Shown here piece after piece: positions 5,827-62,447 of a DNA stretch of 64,000 nt. The notes beneath the pieces were generated by a model that searched no databases, was not told where the DNA came from, and saw only the letters and a program-made list of their open reading frames with translations. The DNA lies in NCBI RefSeq assembly GCF_000515395.1, contig NZ_KI911782.1, forward strand, positions 3,718,606 to 3,782,605. The letters are read 5' to 3'. The DNA is from Jiangella gansuensis DSM 44835. GTDB lineage: Bacteria; Actinomycetota; Actinomycetes; Jiangellales; Jiangellaceae. The position numbers and the translations under genes are program-made. Position 1 is the stretch's first letter. Each line of letters opens with the position of its first letter.

Positions 5827-5898
5827 GTTGATCTTGGAGAACGTGCGGAATCAATCGGACATCTCGCCCAGGAATTCCGCGCTTACTCCAAGATCAAC
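5827..5898. repeat. 72-bp palindromic repeat, copy 1
   Basis: Ends are GTTGATCTTGGAG (5827-5839) and its exact complement (5886-5898); total length is 72 bp. The central CGGACA is at 5856-5861, offset 29 from the left end, on the + strand. It lies between the convergent dgt and glycosylase genes. It belongs to a five-copy family (13503, 21369, 40027, 59456) and may also work as a bidirectional terminator. Confidence 0.92.
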
Positions 5899-13502: not shown

Positions 13503-13574
13503 GTTGATCTTGGAGTTATCGCGGAATCAATCGGACATCACGGGCCGAGATTCTGCGGTTACTCCAAGATCAAC
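13503..13574. repeat. 72-bp palindromic repeat, copy 2
   Basis: Ends GTTGATCTTGGAG (13503-13515) and its complement (13562-13574). Central CGGACA at 13532-13537, offset 29 from the left end on the + strand, as in copy 1. It sits in the gap between the convergent FMN reductase and ROK genes and could end both transcripts. Confidence 0.92.
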
Positions 13575-21368: not shown

Positions 21369-21440
21369 GTTGATCTTGGAGTTGTTCGGCGAATCCCGGG
21401 CGATTTGTCCGGGCGATACCCGAACAACTCCAAGATCAAC
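21369..21440. repeat. 72-bp palindromic repeat, copy 3 (opposite orientation)
   Basis: Ends GTTGATCTTGGAG (21369-21381) and complement (21428-21440). The core reads TGTCCG at 21406-21411, which is CGGACA on the minus strand at offset 29 from the right end. The inner arms (TTGTTCGG, CCGAACAA) differ from copies 1, 2 and 5 but still pair with each other. Confidence 0.92.
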
Positions 21441-40026: not shown

Positions 40027-40098
40027 GTTGATCTTGGAGTAATGACATCAACCCGGACCCATATGTCCGATAGATGCCGCGCTTACTCCAAGATCAAC
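40027..40098. repeat. 72-bp palindromic repeat, copy 4 (opposite orientation)
   Basis: Ends GTTGATCTTGGAG (40027-40039) and complement (40086-40098). Core TGTCCG at 40064-40069, which is CGGACA on the minus strand at offset 29 from the right end. It lies between two co-directional genes. Inner arms pair less well than in other copies. Confidence 0.92.
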
Positions 40099-40238: not shown

Positions 40239-42365
40239 ATGCGCAGAGCCGTAGGGATGACAGCCGGCGCGCTGGTCGCGTCCGTGCTCGTCGCCACGCC
40301 CGGAGCCGCGGCGCCGGGCACCGGTGGGACACCGGCATCGGAGCCACCGCCTGACTCCGCGTTCCAGAAGGTCACGCTCAACGACTCACCCGGCGAACCG
40401 ATGGACCTCGCGGTCCTGCCGGACGGCCGGGTACTGCACACCACCCGGTTCGGCGAGGTGTGGCTGCACGACCCCGACACCCGGCTGAACACGCTGGCCG
40501 CGGAGCTCGACGTCTACGAGCACGACGAGGAGGGCTTGCAGAGCGTCGCCGTCGACCCCGGCTTCGGCACGGACAACCAGTGGGTCTACCTGTACTACTC
40601 GCCGCCACTGGACACCCCTGTCGACGACCCGAGCACCCCGGACGTCAACGAGGGCGACGCGCCGCTCTTCGGCGACCCAGCCGACTTCGAGCCGTTCGAA
40701 GGCGTGATCCGGCTGTCCCGGTTCGAGCTGGACGGCGACGAGCTCGACCTGGCAAGCGAGCAGGAGATCATCGACGTCCCGGTCGACCGCGGCATCTGCT
40801 GCCACGTCGGCGGCGACATCGTGTTCGACGACGCCGGCAACCTGTACCTCGGCACCGGCGACGACACCAACCCGTTCGAGTCCGACGGCTTCACCCCGAT
40901 CGACGAGCGGCCCGACCGCAACCCCGCATTCGACGCCCAGCGCACCTCGGCCAACACCAACGACCTGCGCGGCAAGGTGCTGCGAATCACCGTCCAGGAC
41001 GACGGCACGTACACCGTCCCCGACGGCAACCTGTTCGAGCCGGGCACCGAGGGAACCCGCCCGGAGATCTACGCCATGGGCTTGCGCAACCCGTTCCGGA
41101 TCGAGATCGACCCGGGCACCGGCGACGTGTACGTGGGTGACTACTCACCCGACGCCGACACCGCCGACCCCGAGCGTGGCCCGGCCGGAGTCGGCAAGTG
41201 GACCGTCGTGCGGGAGCCGGCCAACTACGGCTGGCCGTACTGCGCCACGGCGGAGCTGCCCTACGTCGACTACGACTTCGCTACCGAGGCCTCCGGTGAG
41301 CCGTTCGACTGCGCCGCCCCGGTCAACGAGTCGCCGCACAACACCGGCCTGACCGAGCTGCCGGCGGTGACCCAGCCGGACGTCTGGTACTCCTACGGCC
41401 AGTCCGCGGAGTTCCCCGAACTGGGCACCGGCGGCATCGGCCCGATGGCCGGCCCGGTGTACGACTTCGACCCGCGCACCACGCGCGGCCGGGCGCCGGT
41501 GGCGTGGCCGGAGTACTACGACGGCGTGCGGTTGTTCTACGAGTGGACCCGCGACTACATCAAGGGCTTCCGCCTCGACGACGCCGGTCGGCTGGCATCC
41601 ATCGAGGACGTCGTGTCCTCGGTCGTCACCGACAACCCAATGGACATGGAGTTCGGCCCGGACGGCGCGCTCTACGTCCTGGAGTACGGCGACGGCTTCT
41701 TCGCCGAGAACCCGGAGGCGCAGCTCGCCCGGATCGACTACATCGGCACGGACGGCAACCACACCCCGGTCCCGGTGGCGACGGCCGACGTCACCAACGG
41801 CGAGGCGCCGCTGACGGTCCAGTTCAGCAGTGAAGGCACCGCCGACGCCGACGGTGACCGGATGCGCTACGAGTGGGACTTCGACGCTGACGGCAGGGTC
41901 GACTCGCGCCTGCGGAACCCGTCGTTCACCTACGAGGAGAACGGCCTGTACCGAGCCACCCTCAAGGTCACCGACCTCGGCGGCCCGCACCGCGGCAAGA
42001 CCGCGTCGGCGGAGGTCGAGATCGTGGTCGGCAACGTCGCGCCGGTGGTCGAGTTCGTCACCCCGTCCGACGGCGACACGTTCTCCTTCGGCGACGTCGT
42101 CGCGTTCGAGGTGCGGGTGACAGACGACCAGCCGGTCGACTGCTCCCGGGTGCAGGTGACCTACATCGTCGGCCACGACGACCACGGTCACCCGCAGACC
42201 ACGGCGGCGGGCTGCACGGGCACCATCCAGACGACGCTGCCCGGCGGCCACGGCCCGGGGGACAACCTGCGCGGCGTCTTCAATGCCGCTTACACCGACC
42301 CAGGCGGTGACGGCCTGCCGCCGCTGTCCGGGAGCGCGGAGGTGGTGCTGGAGCCGGTCGGCTGA
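40239..42365 (+). CDS. secreted PQQ-dependent sugar dehydrogenase protein 4 (short form)
   Basis: 708 residues; AGGGCAGC precedes ATG 40239. Signal peptide (1-25), PQQ propeller (about 42-505: GLQSVAVDPGFGTDNQWVY, GICCHVGGDIVFD, LRNPFRIEIDPGTGDVYVG, ALYVLEYGDGFF), PKD (512-595, YEWDFDADG) and the domain with GHDDHGH (645-651). It ends with SAEVVLEPVG, exactly where the other four proteins continue with PK-x-R-x-AE and a CBM6-like domain. It therefore lacks the sugar-binding and FIMAH modules and is probably a diffusible form. Whether this is a natural short form or a loss is not clear. It has its own promoter and a strong terminator. Confidence 0.9.
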   Translation: MRRAVGMTAGALVASVLVATPGAAAPGTGGTPASEPPPDSAFQKVTLNDSPGEPMDLAVLPDGRVLHTTRFGEVWLHDPDTRLNTLAAELDVYEHDEEGLQSVAVDPGFGTDNQWVYLYYSPPLDTPVDDPSTPDVNEGDAPLFGDPADFEPFEGVIRLSRFELDGDELDLASEQEIIDVPVDRGICCHVGGDIVFDDAGNLYLGTGDDTNPFESDGFTPIDERPDRNPAFDAQRTSANTNDLRGKVLRITVQDDGTYTVPDGNLFEPGTEGTRPEIYAMGLRNPFRIEIDPGTGDVYVGDYSPDADTADPERGPAGVGKWTVVREPANYGWPYCATAELPYVDYDFATEASGEPFDCAAPVNESPHNTGLTELPAVTQPDVWYSYGQSAEFPELGTGGIGPMAGPVYDFDPRTTRGRAPVAWPEYYDGVRLFYEWTRDYIKGFRLDDAGRLASIEDVVSSVVTDNPMDMEFGPDGALYVLEYGDGFFAENPEAQLARIDYIGTDGNHTPVPVATADVTNGEAPLTVQFSSEGTADADGDRMRYEWDFDADGRVDSRLRNPSFTYEENGLYRATLKVTDLGGPHRGKTASAEVEIVVGNVAPVVEFVTPSDGDTFSFGDVVAFEVRVTDDQPVDCSRVQVTYIVGHDDHGHPQTTAAGCTGTIQTTLPGGHGPGDNLRGVFNAAYTDPGGDGLPPLSGSAEVVLEPVG

Positions 42366-42371
42366 CGCACG

Positions 42372-42423
42372 TTGATCATCAAGGGTTGACCCGGTCATGG
42401 CCGGGTCAACCCTTGACGATCAA
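42372..42423. terminator. long hairpin between convergent genes
   Basis: Arms 42372-42394 and 42401-42423, 23 bp each with one mismatch, separated by TCATGG; the inner stem is AAGGGTTGACCCGG. It serves the + strand PQQ gene and the minus-strand VOC gene, whose stop lies inside the right arm. Confidence 0.85.
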
Positions 42424-42815
42424 GGGGTGGGGGCCGACGGCCAGGCGCGGGCGTTCGCGGCGAACTCCTCCGGGTCGCTGTGCACCGGGATGACGCAGAG
42501 CAGGTGCCCGCCCGGCGCCCGCAGCGTGTGGCAACCTTGCCAGCTCGCCACCTCCACGGCACCGAGCCCGGCCAGCCGGGAAACCTCGGCGGCGACCTCG
42601 TCGGTCTCGATGTCCAGGTGGTAGCGGGGCGCGTCGTCCACTGACTGCACCGCGGTCACCAGGCCGGGGATGGCGTCCTCGAGCACGGTGAACTGCGGCT
42701 CGCCGGGAGGGCTGTGGGTGGCGACACCCAGTGCGCCGGCCCAGAACCCGGTGGTGGCGGGCGCGTCCTCGCGGGGCACGTCGATGAGCAGGGTCGAGAT
42801 CCGGCTGCGATGCAT
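42420..42815 (-). CDS. VOC family (glyoxalase/bleomycin resistance-like) protein
   Basis: 131 residues with the beta-alpha-beta-beta-beta VOC pattern: STLLIDVPREDAPATTGFWA, RYHLDIETDEVAAEVSRLAG, SWQGCHTLRAPGGHLLCVIP. Such proteins are metal-dependent lyases, dioxygenases or binding proteins; the activity here is unknown. ATG 42815 (MHRSRIS) is chosen as it starts the first beta strand; a longer in-frame reading to 42860 has no ribosome site. It is not related in an obvious way to the sugar genes around it. Confidence 0.85.
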   Translation of the reverse strand: MHRSRISTLLIDVPREDAPATTGFWAGALGVATHSPPGEPQFTVLEDAIPGLVTAVQSVDDAPRYHLDIETDEVAAEVSRLAGLGAVEVASWQGCHTLRAPGGHLLCVIPVHSDPEEFAANARAWPSAPTP

Positions 42816-49695: not shown

Positions 49696-49700
49696 CTCGC

Positions 49701-49760
49701 ACTTCTGGAGGCTTGTGCACCCTACGGGCCAGGGGGAAGGGTGCATAAGTCTCCAGAAGT
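49701..49760. repeat. 60-bp palindromic repeat, copy A
   Basis: Ends ACTTCTGGAG (49701-49710) and its complement CTCCAGAAGT (49751-49760); inner arms TGCACCCT and AGGGTGCA also pair. Total length is 60 bp, the same as the copies at 56337 and 62374. It lies in the 127-bp gap before giant gene 5. Confidence 0.93.
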
Positions 49761-49822
49761 GGCCGAACCAGACAGCAACCCAGAGCGCGCGTCCCGTTTC
49801 CCGACAGTCGAAGGAGACTGTG

Positions 49823-56313: not shown

Positions 56314-56336
56314 CACCTGTCTCGCCTCCACTCGCG

Positions 56337-56396
56337 ACTTCTGGAGAGCTATGCACCCTGAAACCCCCCTTGAAGCGTGCATGAGTCTCCAGAAGT
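56337..56396. repeat. 60-bp palindromic repeat, copy B
   Basis: Ends ACTTCTGGAG (56337-56346) and CTCCAGAAGT (56387-56396). CACCCT is at offset 17, as in copies A and C. It ends 19 bp before the first Ebo-cluster gene. Confidence 0.93.
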
Positions 56397-56415
56397 GGGA
56401 TGCGGAGGAAACGGC

Positions 56416-57582: not shown

Positions 57583-58568
57583 GGTTCCGCGACGTCGCCG
57601 AACTGGTGCGAGCACCGGCCGCGCTGACCGTGCCCGGGGATTCCCTGGCCGGTGCCGCCGCGGCCGGTTACCCATACGGCGCTCGCACCGCCGTGACGCC
57701 GTTGGCGTCGGCCTGCCTGTACTGGGCCGGCATGGCGCTCAACGACTACGCCGACCGCGACCTCGACGCCGTCGAACGGCCGGAGCGTCCCATCCCGTCG
57801 GGACGCGTGAAACCGGCGGAGGCGCTGGGCCTGGCCGCCGGCCTGACCGCCGCCGGCATCGGCCTGGCCGCGGTGGCCGGCGGACGGCGCGCCCTGCGGG
57901 TCGCGGTCCCCTTGGCGGCGGCGGTCTGGACGTACGACCTGCTGGCCAAGCCGACACCCGCCGGGCCGGCAGCGATGGGGTTGGCGCGCGGACTCGACGT
58001 GCTGCTCGGCGCGGGCGGGCGGCTGCGTGCCGCTGCCCTGCCGGCGGCGGCCGTCACCGCTCACACCGTCGGCGTCACGGTCCTCAGCCGCGGCGAGGTG
58101 CACGGCGCGTCCCCGTCGTCGGCCCGGTTCGCGCTAGGTGCGACGACCGTCGCCGCTGTCTCGGCCGTGGCTCCGGTGGTGGCGGGCTGGGCGGGGGAAC
58201 GCCGTCCCCGCCCGCGGGCTCGTTCCTCGCCCGATGCCCGACCGAACCCTGGCCGGCGTTCCCCCGCCCAGCCCGCCGCTGTGGTCACCCTGGGTGCCCG
58301 CGGCGGCGACGCCGGTCGCCCGGTGCGCGCGCTCGCGGCTGCCGGGTTCGCCGGGATGTACGCGGCGACGGTGGGGCGGGCACAGCTCGGGGCGGCGCGG
58401 CGGCCGGATGCGCAGACGGTGCGGTCGGCCACCGGCGCCGGGGTGCGCGGCGTGATCCCGCTGCAGGCGGCCCTGCTGGCCCGGTCCGGGGCGACGGCCC
58501 TGGCGGGCGTCGTCGTCGGGATCGGTCCTGCGGCGCGGGCACTGTCGAAGGTGGTGTCGCCGACATGA
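57579..58568 (+). CDS. eboC: SCO3242/EboC-type UbiA prenyltransferase with in-frame insertion
   Basis: 329 residues, polytopic membrane protein. The UbiA aspartate motif is NDYADRDLD (about residue 55), followed by ERPIPSGRVKPAEAL, both family hallmarks; it transfers a prenyl group onto a polar acceptor. GTG 57579 overlaps the upstream stop. Between hydrophobic helices, about residues 200-240, lies a stretch rich in Arg and Pro (GERRPRPRARSSPDARPN) that does not look like this family. The DNA there is a 97-bp palindrome (58181-58277). The family is usually near 290-300 residues, so an inserted repeat explains the excess. Whether the enzyme is still active is open. Confidence 0.85.
   Translation: MRFRDVAELVRAPAALTVPGDSLAGAAAAGYPYGARTAVTPLASACLYWAGMALNDYADRDLDAVERPERPIPSGRVKPAEALGLAAGLTAAGIGLAAVAGGRRALRVAVPLAAAVWTYDLLAKPTPAGPAAMGLARGLDVLLGAGGRLRAAALPAAAVTAHTVGVTVLSRGEVHGASPSSARFALGATTVAAVSAVAPVVAGWAGERRPRPRARSSPDARPNPGRRSPAQPAAVVTLGARGGDAGRPVRALAAAGFAGMYAATVGRAQLGAARRPDAQTVRSATGAGVRGVIPLQAALLARSGATALAGVVVGIGPAARALSKVVSPT
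58181..58277. repeat. 97-bp palindrome inside the prenyltransferase gene
   Basis: Perfect 24-bp arms 58181-58204 and 58254-58277 enclose 49 bp. The enclosed sequence, read on the minus strand, matches the repeat at 63882-63947 (shared GCGAGGAACGAGC and GGTCGGGC). The arms differ from those at 63882. Confidence 0.9.
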
Positions 58569-59599
58569 GCGGCCCCGGAGCTGGACTGAGATTCGGATAC
58601 GGGACCAACGGGTTCGGCAGCCATCGCCTGGACGACGCGCTGGCGGTCATCGCCGGGCTCGGGTACGACGGAGTGGCCCTCACGGTGGACCACCCGCACC
58701 TGGACCCGTTCGCGCCCGGGCTCTCGGCCCGGACGGTGGCGGTGGGCCGGCGGCTGGCGGAGCTGGACCTGGCCGTCGTCATCGAGACCGGCGCCCGCTA
58801 CGTCCTCGACCCATGGCGCAAGCACGAGCCGAACCTGGTCTCCGACGAGGGACGGGAGCGCCGGGTCGACCTGCTGTGCCGGGCGGTGCGCATCGGGGCG
58901 GAGTTGGGTGCCGAGGCGGTGTCGTTCTGGTCCGGGACGCTGCCCGACGGGGTCAGCGCGGACGAGGGATGGCGGCGGCTGACCGCGGGGGTCGGGGCCG
59001 TCCTCGAGGAGGCGGACCGGTGCGGCGTGATCTGTGCGTTCGAGCCGGAGCCGGGGATGTTCGTCGATACCGTCGCCGGCGTGCTGGAGCTGCGTAAGAG
59101 GCTCGGCGACCCGGCGGCGCTGCGGGTGACGCTGGACATCGGCCACGTCGTAGCGAACGAGACGGGCACCGTGGCCGACTGCGTCCATCAGGCCGGCGAG
59201 CTGCTGGCGAACGTGCAGGTGGACGACATGGCCCAGGGTGTGCACGAGCACCTGGAGTTCGGTGAGGGCGAGGTCGACCTGCCGGCGGCGTTGGGTGCGC
59301 TGCTGGACGCCGGCTACACGGGGCTGGCCGCGGTCGAGCTGCCCCGGCACGGGCATGCGGCTCCCGCCGTGGCTCGCCGGTCGCTGGAGGCGTTGCGCGC
59401 GGCCGAGGCGACCGCGTTCGACACCCGCCGCTCCAGCGACACCCCCCGTCCTCCGGTTGATCTTGGAGTTTCCGCGGAATCTACCGGACAAAACGGGCCG
59501 CAATTCCGCGGAAACTCCAAGATCAACGGGGTGGGGGCGACGGAGACCGCGGCAGACGACGCAGGCGGAGACGACGGGGCAGAGGAGGGAACGGGATGA
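58565..59599 (+). CDS. sugar phosphate isomerase/epimerase of the Ebo cluster, with repeat-encoded tail
   Basis: 344 residues. AP_endonuc_2 TIM barrel: LRFGYGTNGFGSHRLDDAL, VICAFEPEPGMFVDTVAGV (Glu ligand), VTLDIGHVVANE (Asp, His) and NVQVDDMAQGVHEHLEFGEG. ATG 58565 overlaps the prenyltransferase stop and its stop overlaps eboA. The barrel ends near residue 285 (EALRAAEATAF). The next part is low complexity, and residues about 298-321 are encoded by a 72-bp palindrome (copy 5), for example VDLGVSAESTG. The tail is therefore a by-product of the repeat. It may stand in for the EboD position of cyanobacterial clusters, though it is not related to EboD. Confidence 0.87.
   Translation: MSGPGAGLRFGYGTNGFGSHRLDDALAVIAGLGYDGVALTVDHPHLDPFAPGLSARTVAVGRRLAELDLAVVIETGARYVLDPWRKHEPNLVSDEGRERRVDLLCRAVRIGAELGAEAVSFWSGTLPDGVSADEGWRRLTAGVGAVLEEADRCGVICAFEPEPGMFVDTVAGVLELRKRLGDPAALRVTLDIGHVVANETGTVADCVHQAGELLANVQVDDMAQGVHEHLEFGEGEVDLPAALGALLDAGYTGLAAVELPRHGHAAPAVARRSLEALRAAEATAFDTRRSSDTPRPPVDLGVSAESTGQNGPQFRGNSKINGVGATETAADDAGGDDGAEEGTG
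59456..59527. repeat. 72-bp palindromic repeat, copy 5, inside a coding sequence
   Basis: Ends GTTGATCTTGGAG (59456-59468) and complement (59515-59527). CGGACA at 59485-59490, offset 29 on the + strand. Inner arms TTTCCGCGGAAT and ATTCCGCGGAAA pair almost perfectly. 72 bp is 24 codons, so the reading frame is kept through it. Confidence 0.93.
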
Positions 59600-60273
59600 G
59601 CGCGACGATCGAGCAGGCCGCACCGCACCTGGACGGGGCGGCGCGGGAACGGCTGGGCGAGCTGATCGCCGAGGTCGAGGCGGACCCGGCACGGATCTCG
59701 GTGCTGTTCCCCGCGGTCGCCCGGAGGGTGACGCGGGGTCCGGTCAGCACCGGCGACCCGGACGGCCTGCGCGGCCCGCGGCTGGAGGACGAGGCGCGGA
59801 TGGCGCTGCTGGTGGCGGCCGCGGCGAAGATGGACGCCGCCGCGCTGGCCCGGGAGGTGGCCGAGCTGTACCGGTTCGGCGACGCCGACGAGAAACGCGC
59901 GGTACTGCGCGCGCTGGCGCTGCTGGACCTCGGCGACGCCGGACTGCCGCTGGTGGCCGACGCGTTGCGGACGAACGACGTGCGGCTGGTGGCGGCCGCG
60001 CTGGGTCCGTACGGCGCCGCGCATCTCGACGACAGCGCGTGGCGCCAGGGCGTGCTGAAGTGCCTGTTCGTGGGCGTGCCGCTGGACGCCGTCGCCGACC
60101 TGGACGCGCGCACCGACGCCGAGCTGGCCCGGATGGTCGCCGACTACGGCAACGAACGGGTGGCTGCCGGCCGCTCGGTGCCCAGCGACGCCTGGCGCAT
60201 CCTGGGCCGGCACCCGGAGGCGGTCGCCGGCCGGTTCCCCGTCCCGTCCGACACCAGCGCCGGGGAGGCCTGA
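59596..60273 (+). CDS. eboA: EboA domain protein
   Basis: 225-residue, mostly helical cytoplasmic protein. The EboA family is defined by its place in Ebo clusters and has no known catalytic activity. Recognisable parts are RMALLVAAAAKMD, ELYRFGDADEKRAVLRALAL, and the helical repeat LVADALRTNDVRLVAAALGP. The repeats resemble HEAT/Armadillo-like scaffolds. ATG 59596 overlaps the previous stop, and the stop TGA shares one base with the eboB ATG. Identification rests on both sequence style and the exact gene neighbourhood. Confidence 0.85.
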   Translation: MSATIEQAAPHLDGAARERLGELIAEVEADPARISVLFPAVARRVTRGPVSTGDPDGLRGPRLEDEARMALLVAAAAKMDAAALAREVAELYRFGDADEKRAVLRALALLDLGDAGLPLVADALRTNDVRLVAAALGPYGAAHLDDSAWRQGVLKCLFVGVPLDAVADLDARTDAELARMVADYGNERVAAGRSVPSDAWRILGRHPEAVAGRFPVPSDTSAGEA

Positions 60274-61207: not shown

Positions 61208-62398
61208 TTGCGCATGCGGCACCGTGACGGCACCGTCGTGCACGTCGCGTACTGCACCAACGTGCACCCGACCGAGGACGTCGAGGCGCTGTTGCGGCAG
61301 GTGCGCCGGTACGGGGGCGGGATACGGGAACGGCTGGGCACGGCGCGGCTGGGATTGGGCCTGTGGTTGCCGGCGCCGGTGGTCTCCCGGCTGGCCGGTG
61401 CGGCCGGGCGGGCGGAGCTGGAGCGGCTGCGTTCGGCCCTGGACGCCGGCGGGCTGGAGGTGGTGACGCTCAACGCGTTCCCGTACGCCGGCTTCCAGGA
61501 CCCCGAGGTCAAGCTGGCCGTCTACCACCCGGACTGGACCACGCCGGAGCGGCTGGCGTACACGCTGGACTGCGCCCGCGTGCTGGCCGGACTGCTGCCC
61601 GACGACGCCGCCCGCGGCAGTGTGTCCAGCCTGCCGCTGGCCTGGCGTACGCCGTGGGACGACGCACGGCGGAGGCTGGCCCGGGGTCACCTGGATCGGC
61701 TGGCCGACGGCCTGGCGGCGCTGGAGGCGTCGACCGGCCGCACCATCCGGGTCGGGCTGGAGCCGGAGCCCGGCTGTGTCGTCGAGACCACCGACGGCGC
61801 CGTCGTCGAGCTGGCCGGCGTCGACACCGAGCGGATCGGCGTCTGCCTGGACGCCTGCCATCTCGCCGTGCAGTTCGAGGAGCCGACCGAGGCGGTCCGG
61901 CGGCTGGCCGCGGCCGGGCTGCCGATCGTGAAGACCCAGGCGTCGGCGGCTCTGGAGGTGGCCGACCCGGCGTCCGACGGGGCCCGGGCCGCACTCGCGG
62001 CGTACACCGAGGACCGGTTCCTGCACCAGACCCGCGCGTTGGGCTCGTCGGCGGCGGTGGCCGGCGTGGATGACCTGCCGGCCGCGCTGGCCGGTGGGCT
62101 GCCTCGCGGTGACCCGTGGCGGGTGCACTACCACGTGCCGGTGCACGAGCACCCGGAGCCGCCGCTCGCGGTCACGCAGGATCACCTGGCCGCGACGTTC
62201 GATGCGCTGTTCGGTGGCGAGCACGCGGTCACCGACCACGTGGAGGTCGAGACCTACACCTGGTCGGTGCTGCCCGAGGGGCGGCGGCCGGCCGGGCCGG
62301 ACGGGCTGGCCGACGGTCTGGCGGCGGAGCTGAGGTGGGTCGCGGACCGGCTGATCGCGACGGGTATGACCCCACTTCTGGAGGCTTATCCACCCTGA
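61208..62398 (+). CDS. eboE: EboE, metabolite traffic TIM-barrel protein
   Basis: 396 residues, xylose isomerase-like barrel of the EboE family. TTG 61208 is chosen: GAGGAGG ends 8 bp upstream, whereas the ATG at 61214 would be 14 bp away. Family features are VHVAYCTNVHPTEDVEALL, LNAFPYAGFQDPEVK (Glu/Lys near the active site), VGLEPEPGCVVET, and IGVCLDACHLAVQFEEP, then HYHVPVHEHPEPPL. These give a likely set of Glu/Asp/His metal ligands. The stop lies inside the 60-bp palindrome copy C. Confidence 0.88.
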   Translation: MRMRHRDGTVVHVAYCTNVHPTEDVEALLRQVRRYGGGIRERLGTARLGLGLWLPAPVVSRLAGAAGRAELERLRSALDAGGLEVVTLNAFPYAGFQDPEVKLAVYHPDWTTPERLAYTLDCARVLAGLLPDDAARGSVSSLPLAWRTPWDDARRRLARGHLDRLADGLAALEASTGRTIRVGLEPEPGCVVETTDGAVVELAGVDTERIGVCLDACHLAVQFEEPTEAVRRLAAAGLPIVKTQASAALEVADPASDGARAALAAYTEDRFLHQTRALGSSAAVAGVDDLPAALAGGLPRGDPWRVHYHVPVHEHPEPPLAVTQDHLAATFDALFGGEHAVTDHVEVETYTWSVLPEGRRPAGPDGLADGLAAELRWVADRLIATGMTPLLEAYPP

Positions 62399-62433
62399 AA
62401 CTGGCCCGGAAACGTGGACAAGCCTCCAGAAGT
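62374..62433. repeat. 60-bp palindromic repeat, copy C, overlapping the eboE stop
   Basis: Arms 62374-62393 and 62414-62433 are 20 bp with one mismatch (ACTTCTGGAGGCTT outer part). CACCCT sits at offset 17. It encodes the last eight codons of eboE and ends 14 bp before the eboF start. Confidence 0.93.
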
Positions 62434-62447
62434 CGAAAGGAGAAGCG

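Follow-up and report, generated by a model that had tools for sequence, protein, structure and literature searches.

Protein-coding palindromes are mainly known from Rickettsia, and selection for the peptide is hard to separate from selfish spread of the repeat. The Rickettsia palindromic elements (RPEs) are about 150 bp long, and nearly half of the reported ones lie in open reading frames (ORFs), according to the accessible portion of PMC10969869; their repeat identity is said to fade over time (available text of PMC6649704). Another class of short palindromes, the REPs, are reported to stall ribosomes when located 15 nt or less from a stop codon (excerpts of PMC12306157) and are insertion targets of IS elements (excerpts of PMC1525189). 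As to the locus considered here, the available part of PMC5133447 mentions, with data not shown there, that the isomerase and EboA are fused into one protein in various actinobacteria, which makes the isomerase-EboA junction a natural linker. We found no published account of the 72-nt palindrome family of Jiangella analyzed below, most subscription papers being outside the literature searched, and the palindrome mentions in the available text of PMC5292007 concern CRISPR.

A palindromic repeat inside an Ebo-cluster isomerase gene

The window, i.e., the whole 64,000-nt stretch of DNA analyzed from the soil actinobacterium Jiangella gansuensis, contains the following features, all on the + strand.

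58565..59599 (stop included), +, xylose-isomerase-like TIM-barrel gene (sugar-phosphate isomerase/epimerase-like) of the Ebo cluster, 344 aa, from the ORF, PF01261 and homologues
59436..59598, +, variable barrel-eboA linker, widened by the insert, borders approximate, from alignment and pLDDT <50
59456..59527, +, 72-nt palindromic repeat, read in frame 0 as VDLGVSAESTGQNGPQFRGNSKIN, residues 298-321
59456..59468, +, left 13-nt arm GTTGATCTTGGAG, with a TGA in frame 2 within the arm
59515..59527, +, right 13-nt arm CTCCAAGATCAAC, reverse complement of GTTGATCTTGGAG
59582..59589, +, GAGGAGGG, likely eboA ribosome-binding site, 3' of the insert
59596..60273, +, eboA, in ATGA overlap with the isomerase stop, NF035938 EboA domain (E 1e-50)
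5827..5898, +, further 72-nt palindrome copy, exact arm pair
13503..13574, +, further 72-nt palindrome copy, exact arm pair
21369..21440, +, further 72-nt palindrome copy, exact arm pair
40027..40098, +, further 72-nt palindrome copy, exact arm pair

The first-pass annotation had proposed that a 72-nt palindrome forms 24 in-frame codons near the 3' end of this Ebo-cluster gene, after a finished barrel and with the overlap to eboA preserved, and each of these points was borne out. The ORF starting at 58565 is free of stops, through the palindrome, up to the TGA at 59597-59599; the PF01261 profile match (E 3.5e-36, residues 27-279) covers the barrel and ends before the repeat, and the eboA ATG starts at 59596. 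The five arm pairs (10 arms) found in the window compare with 0 expected from 100 shuffles. In folding, the RNA hairpin at 59446-59537 reached -59.1 kcal/mol (z = -8.3), a value that none of 200 shuffles matched, and an Rfam scan of the window gave no family at gathering cut-offs.

The closest solved folds of the isomerase are UlaE (Foldseek E 1.6e-16) and a D-tagatose 3-epimerase-like protein, and its modeled fold matches those of sugar 3-epimerases. In the AlphaFold2 model, built from a 21-row alignment, pLDDT is high up to about residue 290 and falls below 50 at residues 299-337, and the tail is accordingly predicted to be disordered. Curated cut-offs were passed in the cluster by the EboA domain, EboE and SCO3242-type prenyltransferase genes, while the TatD-like and phosphonoacetate-hydrolase-like genes gave matches below cut-off.

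The window holds other repeats as well. A second palindrome family of about 62 nt, with ends ACTTCTGGAG/CTCCAGAAGT, has 14 exact copies in the genome and three in the window. One of them (62373-62434) overlies the 3' end of eboE (61208-62398), and J. gansuensis EboE ends in ...GMTPLLEAYPP with its stop inside the palindrome; J. aurantiaca EboE ends in ...GMEEIA, and its cluster locus has no arm of this second family. The two further copies are at 49700-49761 and at 56336-56397, the latter just 5' of an inositol-phosphate-synthase-like gene. An unrelated inverted repeat of 82 nt, without spacer and 80% complementary, was found at 42357-42438.

The isomerase-eboA junction in congeners

A homologue search in 60 genomes gave some match at E 0.001 in 29 of them and 23 Ebo-type isomerases at E <= 3e-72, J. 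gansuensis included. The palindrome was present in two of the 23, J. gansuensis and J. aurantiaca, and the exact core was absent from the loci of 20. Tails could be read in 22 homologues, and the core search at the loci also took in the remaining one. The J. asiatica homologue (G005) breaks off in the spacer, after 59 aa, where its contig ends, and eboA lies at the end of another contig. We looked for repeat-free homologues carrying the same tail sequence and length and saw none, the tail after VELPRH being 88 aa in J. gansuensis, 82 aa in J. aurantiaca and 38 to 56 aa in nine repeat-free congeners.

Complete junctions were available for 11 of the 12 congeners (J. asiatica was excluded from the spacer alignment). 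Their spacers measure 218, 200, 122, 116, 89, 86, 80, 80, 77, 77 and 68 nt, and all 11 equal 2 modulo 3. In the alignment, the variable spacer holds the palindrome, which in J. aurantiaca occupies the same spacer and the same frame as in J. gansuensis, and a purine-rich site followed by the eboA start lies 3' of the spacer. Seven of the nine repeat-free congeners have a GG(E/V)E-type protein end beside a GAGGAGG-like site and the eboA ATG; the exceptions to this end are G008 and J. muralis, and in J. endophytica the stop comes one codon earlier. In both filled alleles the GG(E/V)E-type end, the ribosome site and the ATGA are still found 3' of the repeat, so the original stop was not passed and the linker was lengthened instead. 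We therefore reject an overrun of the original stop by the repeat, as had been suggested from the J. gansuensis sequence alone; of that proposal, the insertion in frame after a finished barrel stands and the readthrough does not. Likewise, the "new tail" that had been described is an existing linker made longer, and it is found in two species rather than in one strain.

The filled linkers are some 40 to 46 codons longer, of which 24 are palindrome and some 16 to 22 are not, and hence this was no clean 72-nt insertion. The surroundings of empty and filled sites are too divergent to fix the borders of the insert or a target site duplication. G008 and J. muralis (L020 and L027) carry a different in-frame insert of about 36 to 42 nt in the same spacer, which suggests that the isomerase-eboA spacer might be an insertion hotspot.

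We compared the two filled alleles in their codons and in their arms. The palindrome has 5 synonymous and 7 nonsynonymous codon changes, against 86 and 20 in the 266 codons of the barrel (Fisher P 0.0056, with 12 changed codons in total in the palindrome), and these changes give no sign of protein-level selection on the palindrome tail between the two alleles. At the same time, the arms are identical at 26 of 26 positions versus 31 of 46 inside the palindrome (P 0.0006), and barrel four-fold sites are identical at 92 of 164. The J. aurantiaca copy was found via protein homology, so exact arms were not a precondition for this pair. With palindrome codons that are more prone to replacement than those of the barrel, and 13-nt arms that show no change, the arm constraint looks like one acting on the nucleic acid, or like copying among repeats.

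The frame kept in two species within the same spacer, and the retention in both of the arm-encoded VDLG and SKIN, could point to exaptation, with the 24 codons giving the isomerase a new function, e.g., docking to EboA. We regard this as highly improbable: VDLG and SKIN are simply what the DNA arms encode, and these arms recur in the 53 exact copies of the genome, the inner codon changes have a high nonsynonymous share, the tail is predicted to be disordered, and nine of the 11 congeners with a complete junction have no repeat. Judged from the sequences, the repeat supplies an Ebo-cluster enzyme with an in-frame linker or tail, which is most likely tolerated and not under selection for its peptide.

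Our main reading, to which we give a probability of about three in four, is that a multicopy palindromic element, shared by Jiangella and a near relative, sits, tolerated, in a permissive linker between the barrel and EboA and is constrained as DNA or RNA. The insert would survive because the repeat is 72 nt long and usually open in frame 0, and because the linker is presumably disordered. Translation through the hairpin would keep it from acting as an end-of-gene barrier 5' of eboA, and the arms would be conserved for a DNA or RNA function of the element, or by copying between repeats, and not for the peptide.

Copies, pairing and history of the palindrome family

The J. gansuensis genome (5,585,780 bases) contains 53 exact-arm copies, and a covariance model gave 137 strand matches, counted as at least 69 places at full model length. 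This model was made from 48 aligned copies out of 161 oriented 72-nt ones, and 150 of 1901 first-look candidates were scored. Across 118 genomes, exact-arm copies appeared in 11 of 12 Jiangella, 1 of 10 other Jiangellaceae and none of the remaining 96. At least 120 stretches were found in named genomes, and those listed comprise 117 from Jiangella, two from Haloactinopolyspora alba and one from Dactylosporangium fulvum. From the loci we collected 189 distinct copies, 161 of them of 72 nt. A search of viral_contigs gave no exact-arm match.

Pairing may be maintained inside the element. In the inner stem of the 48 aligned copies, 75 cells were changed on both sides, compared with 38 for the shuffles, none of 500 of which reached this number; these two-sided changes also exceeded every slid control. 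Two of five covariation measures did not exceed shuffles (double-change pairs, 10 versus 9.1; pair types, 24 versus 23.4), and the three that exceeded them might be inflated by the relatedness of the copies. Among 156 distinct copies, pairing was commoner than shuffled at pairs 15-20 and 22. The flanks are C-rich 5' of the element on either strand, hence G-rich 3'. Subfamilies differ from genome to genome, a hint of homogenization: at pair 19/54, 45 of 49 J. gansuensis copies carry G-C and all 42 of the J. rhizosphaerae copies collected carry C-G, although J. aurantiaca has both (14 and 21 of 36) and is thus mixed.

At shared sites, palindrome interiors are 0.62 identical, against 0.61 for random pairs (12 of 16 pairs, the others differing in length), and the flanks agree more than the interiors. 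We considered a rapid replacement of the interiors at these sites and withdrew it, as four-fold identity between J. gansuensis and its congeners is only 0.55 to 0.66 and plain drift explains most of the interior divergence.

To account for the spread of the family, mobilization by a REP transposase was considered and is rejected: the Y1/REP transposase (PF01797) was found in none of 23 genomes, the 12 Jiangella included, whereas the control search was positive in 5 of 14 well-known genomes. In J. gansuensis itself, two arm pairs 1.4 kb apart (among 100 of 125 single-arm places listed) are palindromes split by a transposase gene that we assign to the IS30 type on the basis of its HTH_38 and rve domains. 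The interrupting elements (3092754-3094150 and 4049378-4050774; L218:301-1697 and L219:301-1697) have their own ends inside the loop and are 98.8% identical over 1368 aligned nt. Thus, the arms are not the ends of the 1.4-kb element at 3092754-3094150, an idea that we discarded, since this is an IS30-type insertion within the loop. The IS30-type element may target the palindrome.

The copy nearest to the J. gansuensis Ebo palindrome is at 3613521-3613592 in the same genome (42 of 46 inner nt). In its flanks, 35 nt match the isomerase gene around VELPRHGHAA at 94%, and 26 nt match the right junction at 92%; repeat and right junction together are 94% identical over 101 nt, and about 71 nt in between are absent. 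It thus seems that Ebo-gene DNA was copied to this place jointly with the repeat. The whole degenerate copy of the isomerase 3' end, palindrome and right junction included (3613437-3613622; L045:1443-1686), lies beside a gene with a putative PhoX-like look.

Whether the two Ebo palindromes go back to one old insertion with losses or to two independent insertions into a hotspot linker is a question that either answer would leave compatible with the tolerated insert. On the isomerase tree, J. gansuensis groups with J. asiatica (98/99) and J. aurantiaca falls elsewhere, most of the genus branching not being resolved, and the two palindromes are 0.67 identical inside, a similarity reached by 30% of random pairs; together, this means that one old insertion is not proven. 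We consider two insertions a real possibility, somewhat short of an even chance. Palindrome presence does not follow the tree, each Ebo copy is closest to copies of its own genome, in J. aurantiaca as in J. gansuensis, and this spacer holds an in-frame insert of another kind in two further congeners. However, in both species the palindrome lies on the same side of the ribosome site, in the same frame and with the same loop orientation, drift at 0.56 four-fold identity would alone erase the similarity, and the J. gansuensis copy nearest to the Ebo palindrome may be its daughter, given the Ebo-gene DNA in its flanks.

Gene ends, other coding copies and known systems

To see how genes meet the element elsewhere, we used a codon score trained on seven genes of the Ebo-cluster region (2408 codons, the isomerase barrel included and an out-of-frame eighth piece excluded). 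A gene runs into the element on 33 of 362 copy sides, although weakly coding genes could be missed by this simple score. Entry was in frame 2, where the TGA at the edge is the stop, in 26 of the 33 genes, in frame 0 in four and in frame 1 in three (binomial P 1e-7 for frame 2 versus one third); related sites are included in these counts, so not all of them are independent. At stricter cut-offs, frame 2 accounted for 24 of 31 and 17 of 23 entries, and a first, stricter count, which missed the Ebo gene, had 13 of 17. This is therefore a repeated palindrome near gene 3' ends, whose edge TGA is the stop codon in 26 of 33 cases. The edge TGA ends the adjoining genes at L014, L057, L066, L072 and others, and two of these sites, L014 (J. 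gansuensis) and L057 (H. alba), are similar in both flanks and hence related.

Frame 0 is free of stops in 288 of 378 element orientations. Full readthrough was seen in 4 of the 33 genes, namely, the two Ebo genes, a LivM-LivG fusion and a doubtful frame-1 case (L176). In the fusion (PF02653 plus PF00005), J. aurantiaca and J. asiatica (L236, L240) use the palindrome as linker, and in J. asiatica its outer arms both differ, by a paired change. The two further LivM-LivG homologues found, in G001 and G004, have linkers without palindrome (10 of 12 congeners searched). L090, a J. gansuensis ORF with no Pfam match, enters the element in frame 0 and has its stop inside it.

An element with such a stop at its edge might be expected to belong to gene 3' ends, and the hairpin between isomerase and eboA could in this sense have a regulatory role in the operon, through mRNA processing, stability or attenuation, its coding being incidental. 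The very stable fold and an arm conservation beyond codon need would agree with this role, as would the 26 of 33 edge stops. But there is no U run after the stem, the junction lacks the element in nine of 11 congeners, and ribosomes would melt the hairpin if the open frame is translated, so we judge a regulatory hairpin improbable. It is also conceivable, if doubtful, that the palindrome behaves as a selfish element of a "harm-limiting" kind, adapted to gene ends and linkers and yielding either an immediate edge TGA or a disordered 24-codon linker. One entry frame would lead to the edge TGA on either strand, and the gene would simply stop; another would turn the 72 nt, a multiple of three, into a usually stop-free, disordered linker. 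If this were true, arms and pairing would be kept as nucleic acid inside genes, and linkers would be gained under DNA-level and not protein-level selection.

Compared with known systems, the tolerated insert of the main reading recalls RPEs most. Both are multicopy, lie in frame in unrelated protein genes and encode a tolerated peptide, as far as the available parts of PMC10969869 and PMC6649704 describe RPEs, and the open in-frame peptide is found here in the Ebo gene (two species) and the LivM-LivG fusion (two species). The Jiangella palindrome differs from RPEs, as described, in its 72 nt, in lying mostly outside genes and in belonging to a high-GC actinobacterium; a stop codon is commoner than a peptide, and the arms are unchanged in the one pair compared. 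The large ORF share of RPEs was not seen, with 33 of 362 sides entered and four full readthroughs, one of them doubtful.

With REPs and BIMEs the family shares short repeated palindromes by gene 3' ends, and the IS insertion in the palindrome is also REP-like, although IS30 is not among the five families named in the accessible text of PMC1525189. It is longer (72 nt versus 14 to 40 for REPs in E. coli in PMC12306157, or 21 to 65 in PMC1525189, excerpts in both cases) and has no Y1/REP transposase in the 23 genomes. Nematomorph mitochondria also have inverted repeats in protein-coding genes with pairing kept over time (available text of PMC6649704), where, however, both arms encode conserved amino acids, while in Jiangella the repeat belongs to a dispersed family and forms an extra segment of the gene. 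Ebo clusters elsewhere have a xylose-isomerase-like partner of EboA as well, and unlike the fused actinobacterial form, isomerase and EboA are separate overlapping genes in Jiangella, and in two species the palindrome occupies their junction.

The occurrence of empty and filled alleles, the two unrelated host genes, the frame bias and the arms conserved within coding DNA make it testable, in another kind of bacterium, whether a dispersed palindrome is maintained as DNA or RNA, with proteins doing no more than tolerate the insert. They also caution that, in genomes of this kind, a C-terminal tail or a linker can derive from a repeat. By analogy, the Jiangella case would be a protein-coding palindrome of the kind known from Rickettsia, built on a different repeat, with RPEs as its closest precedent.
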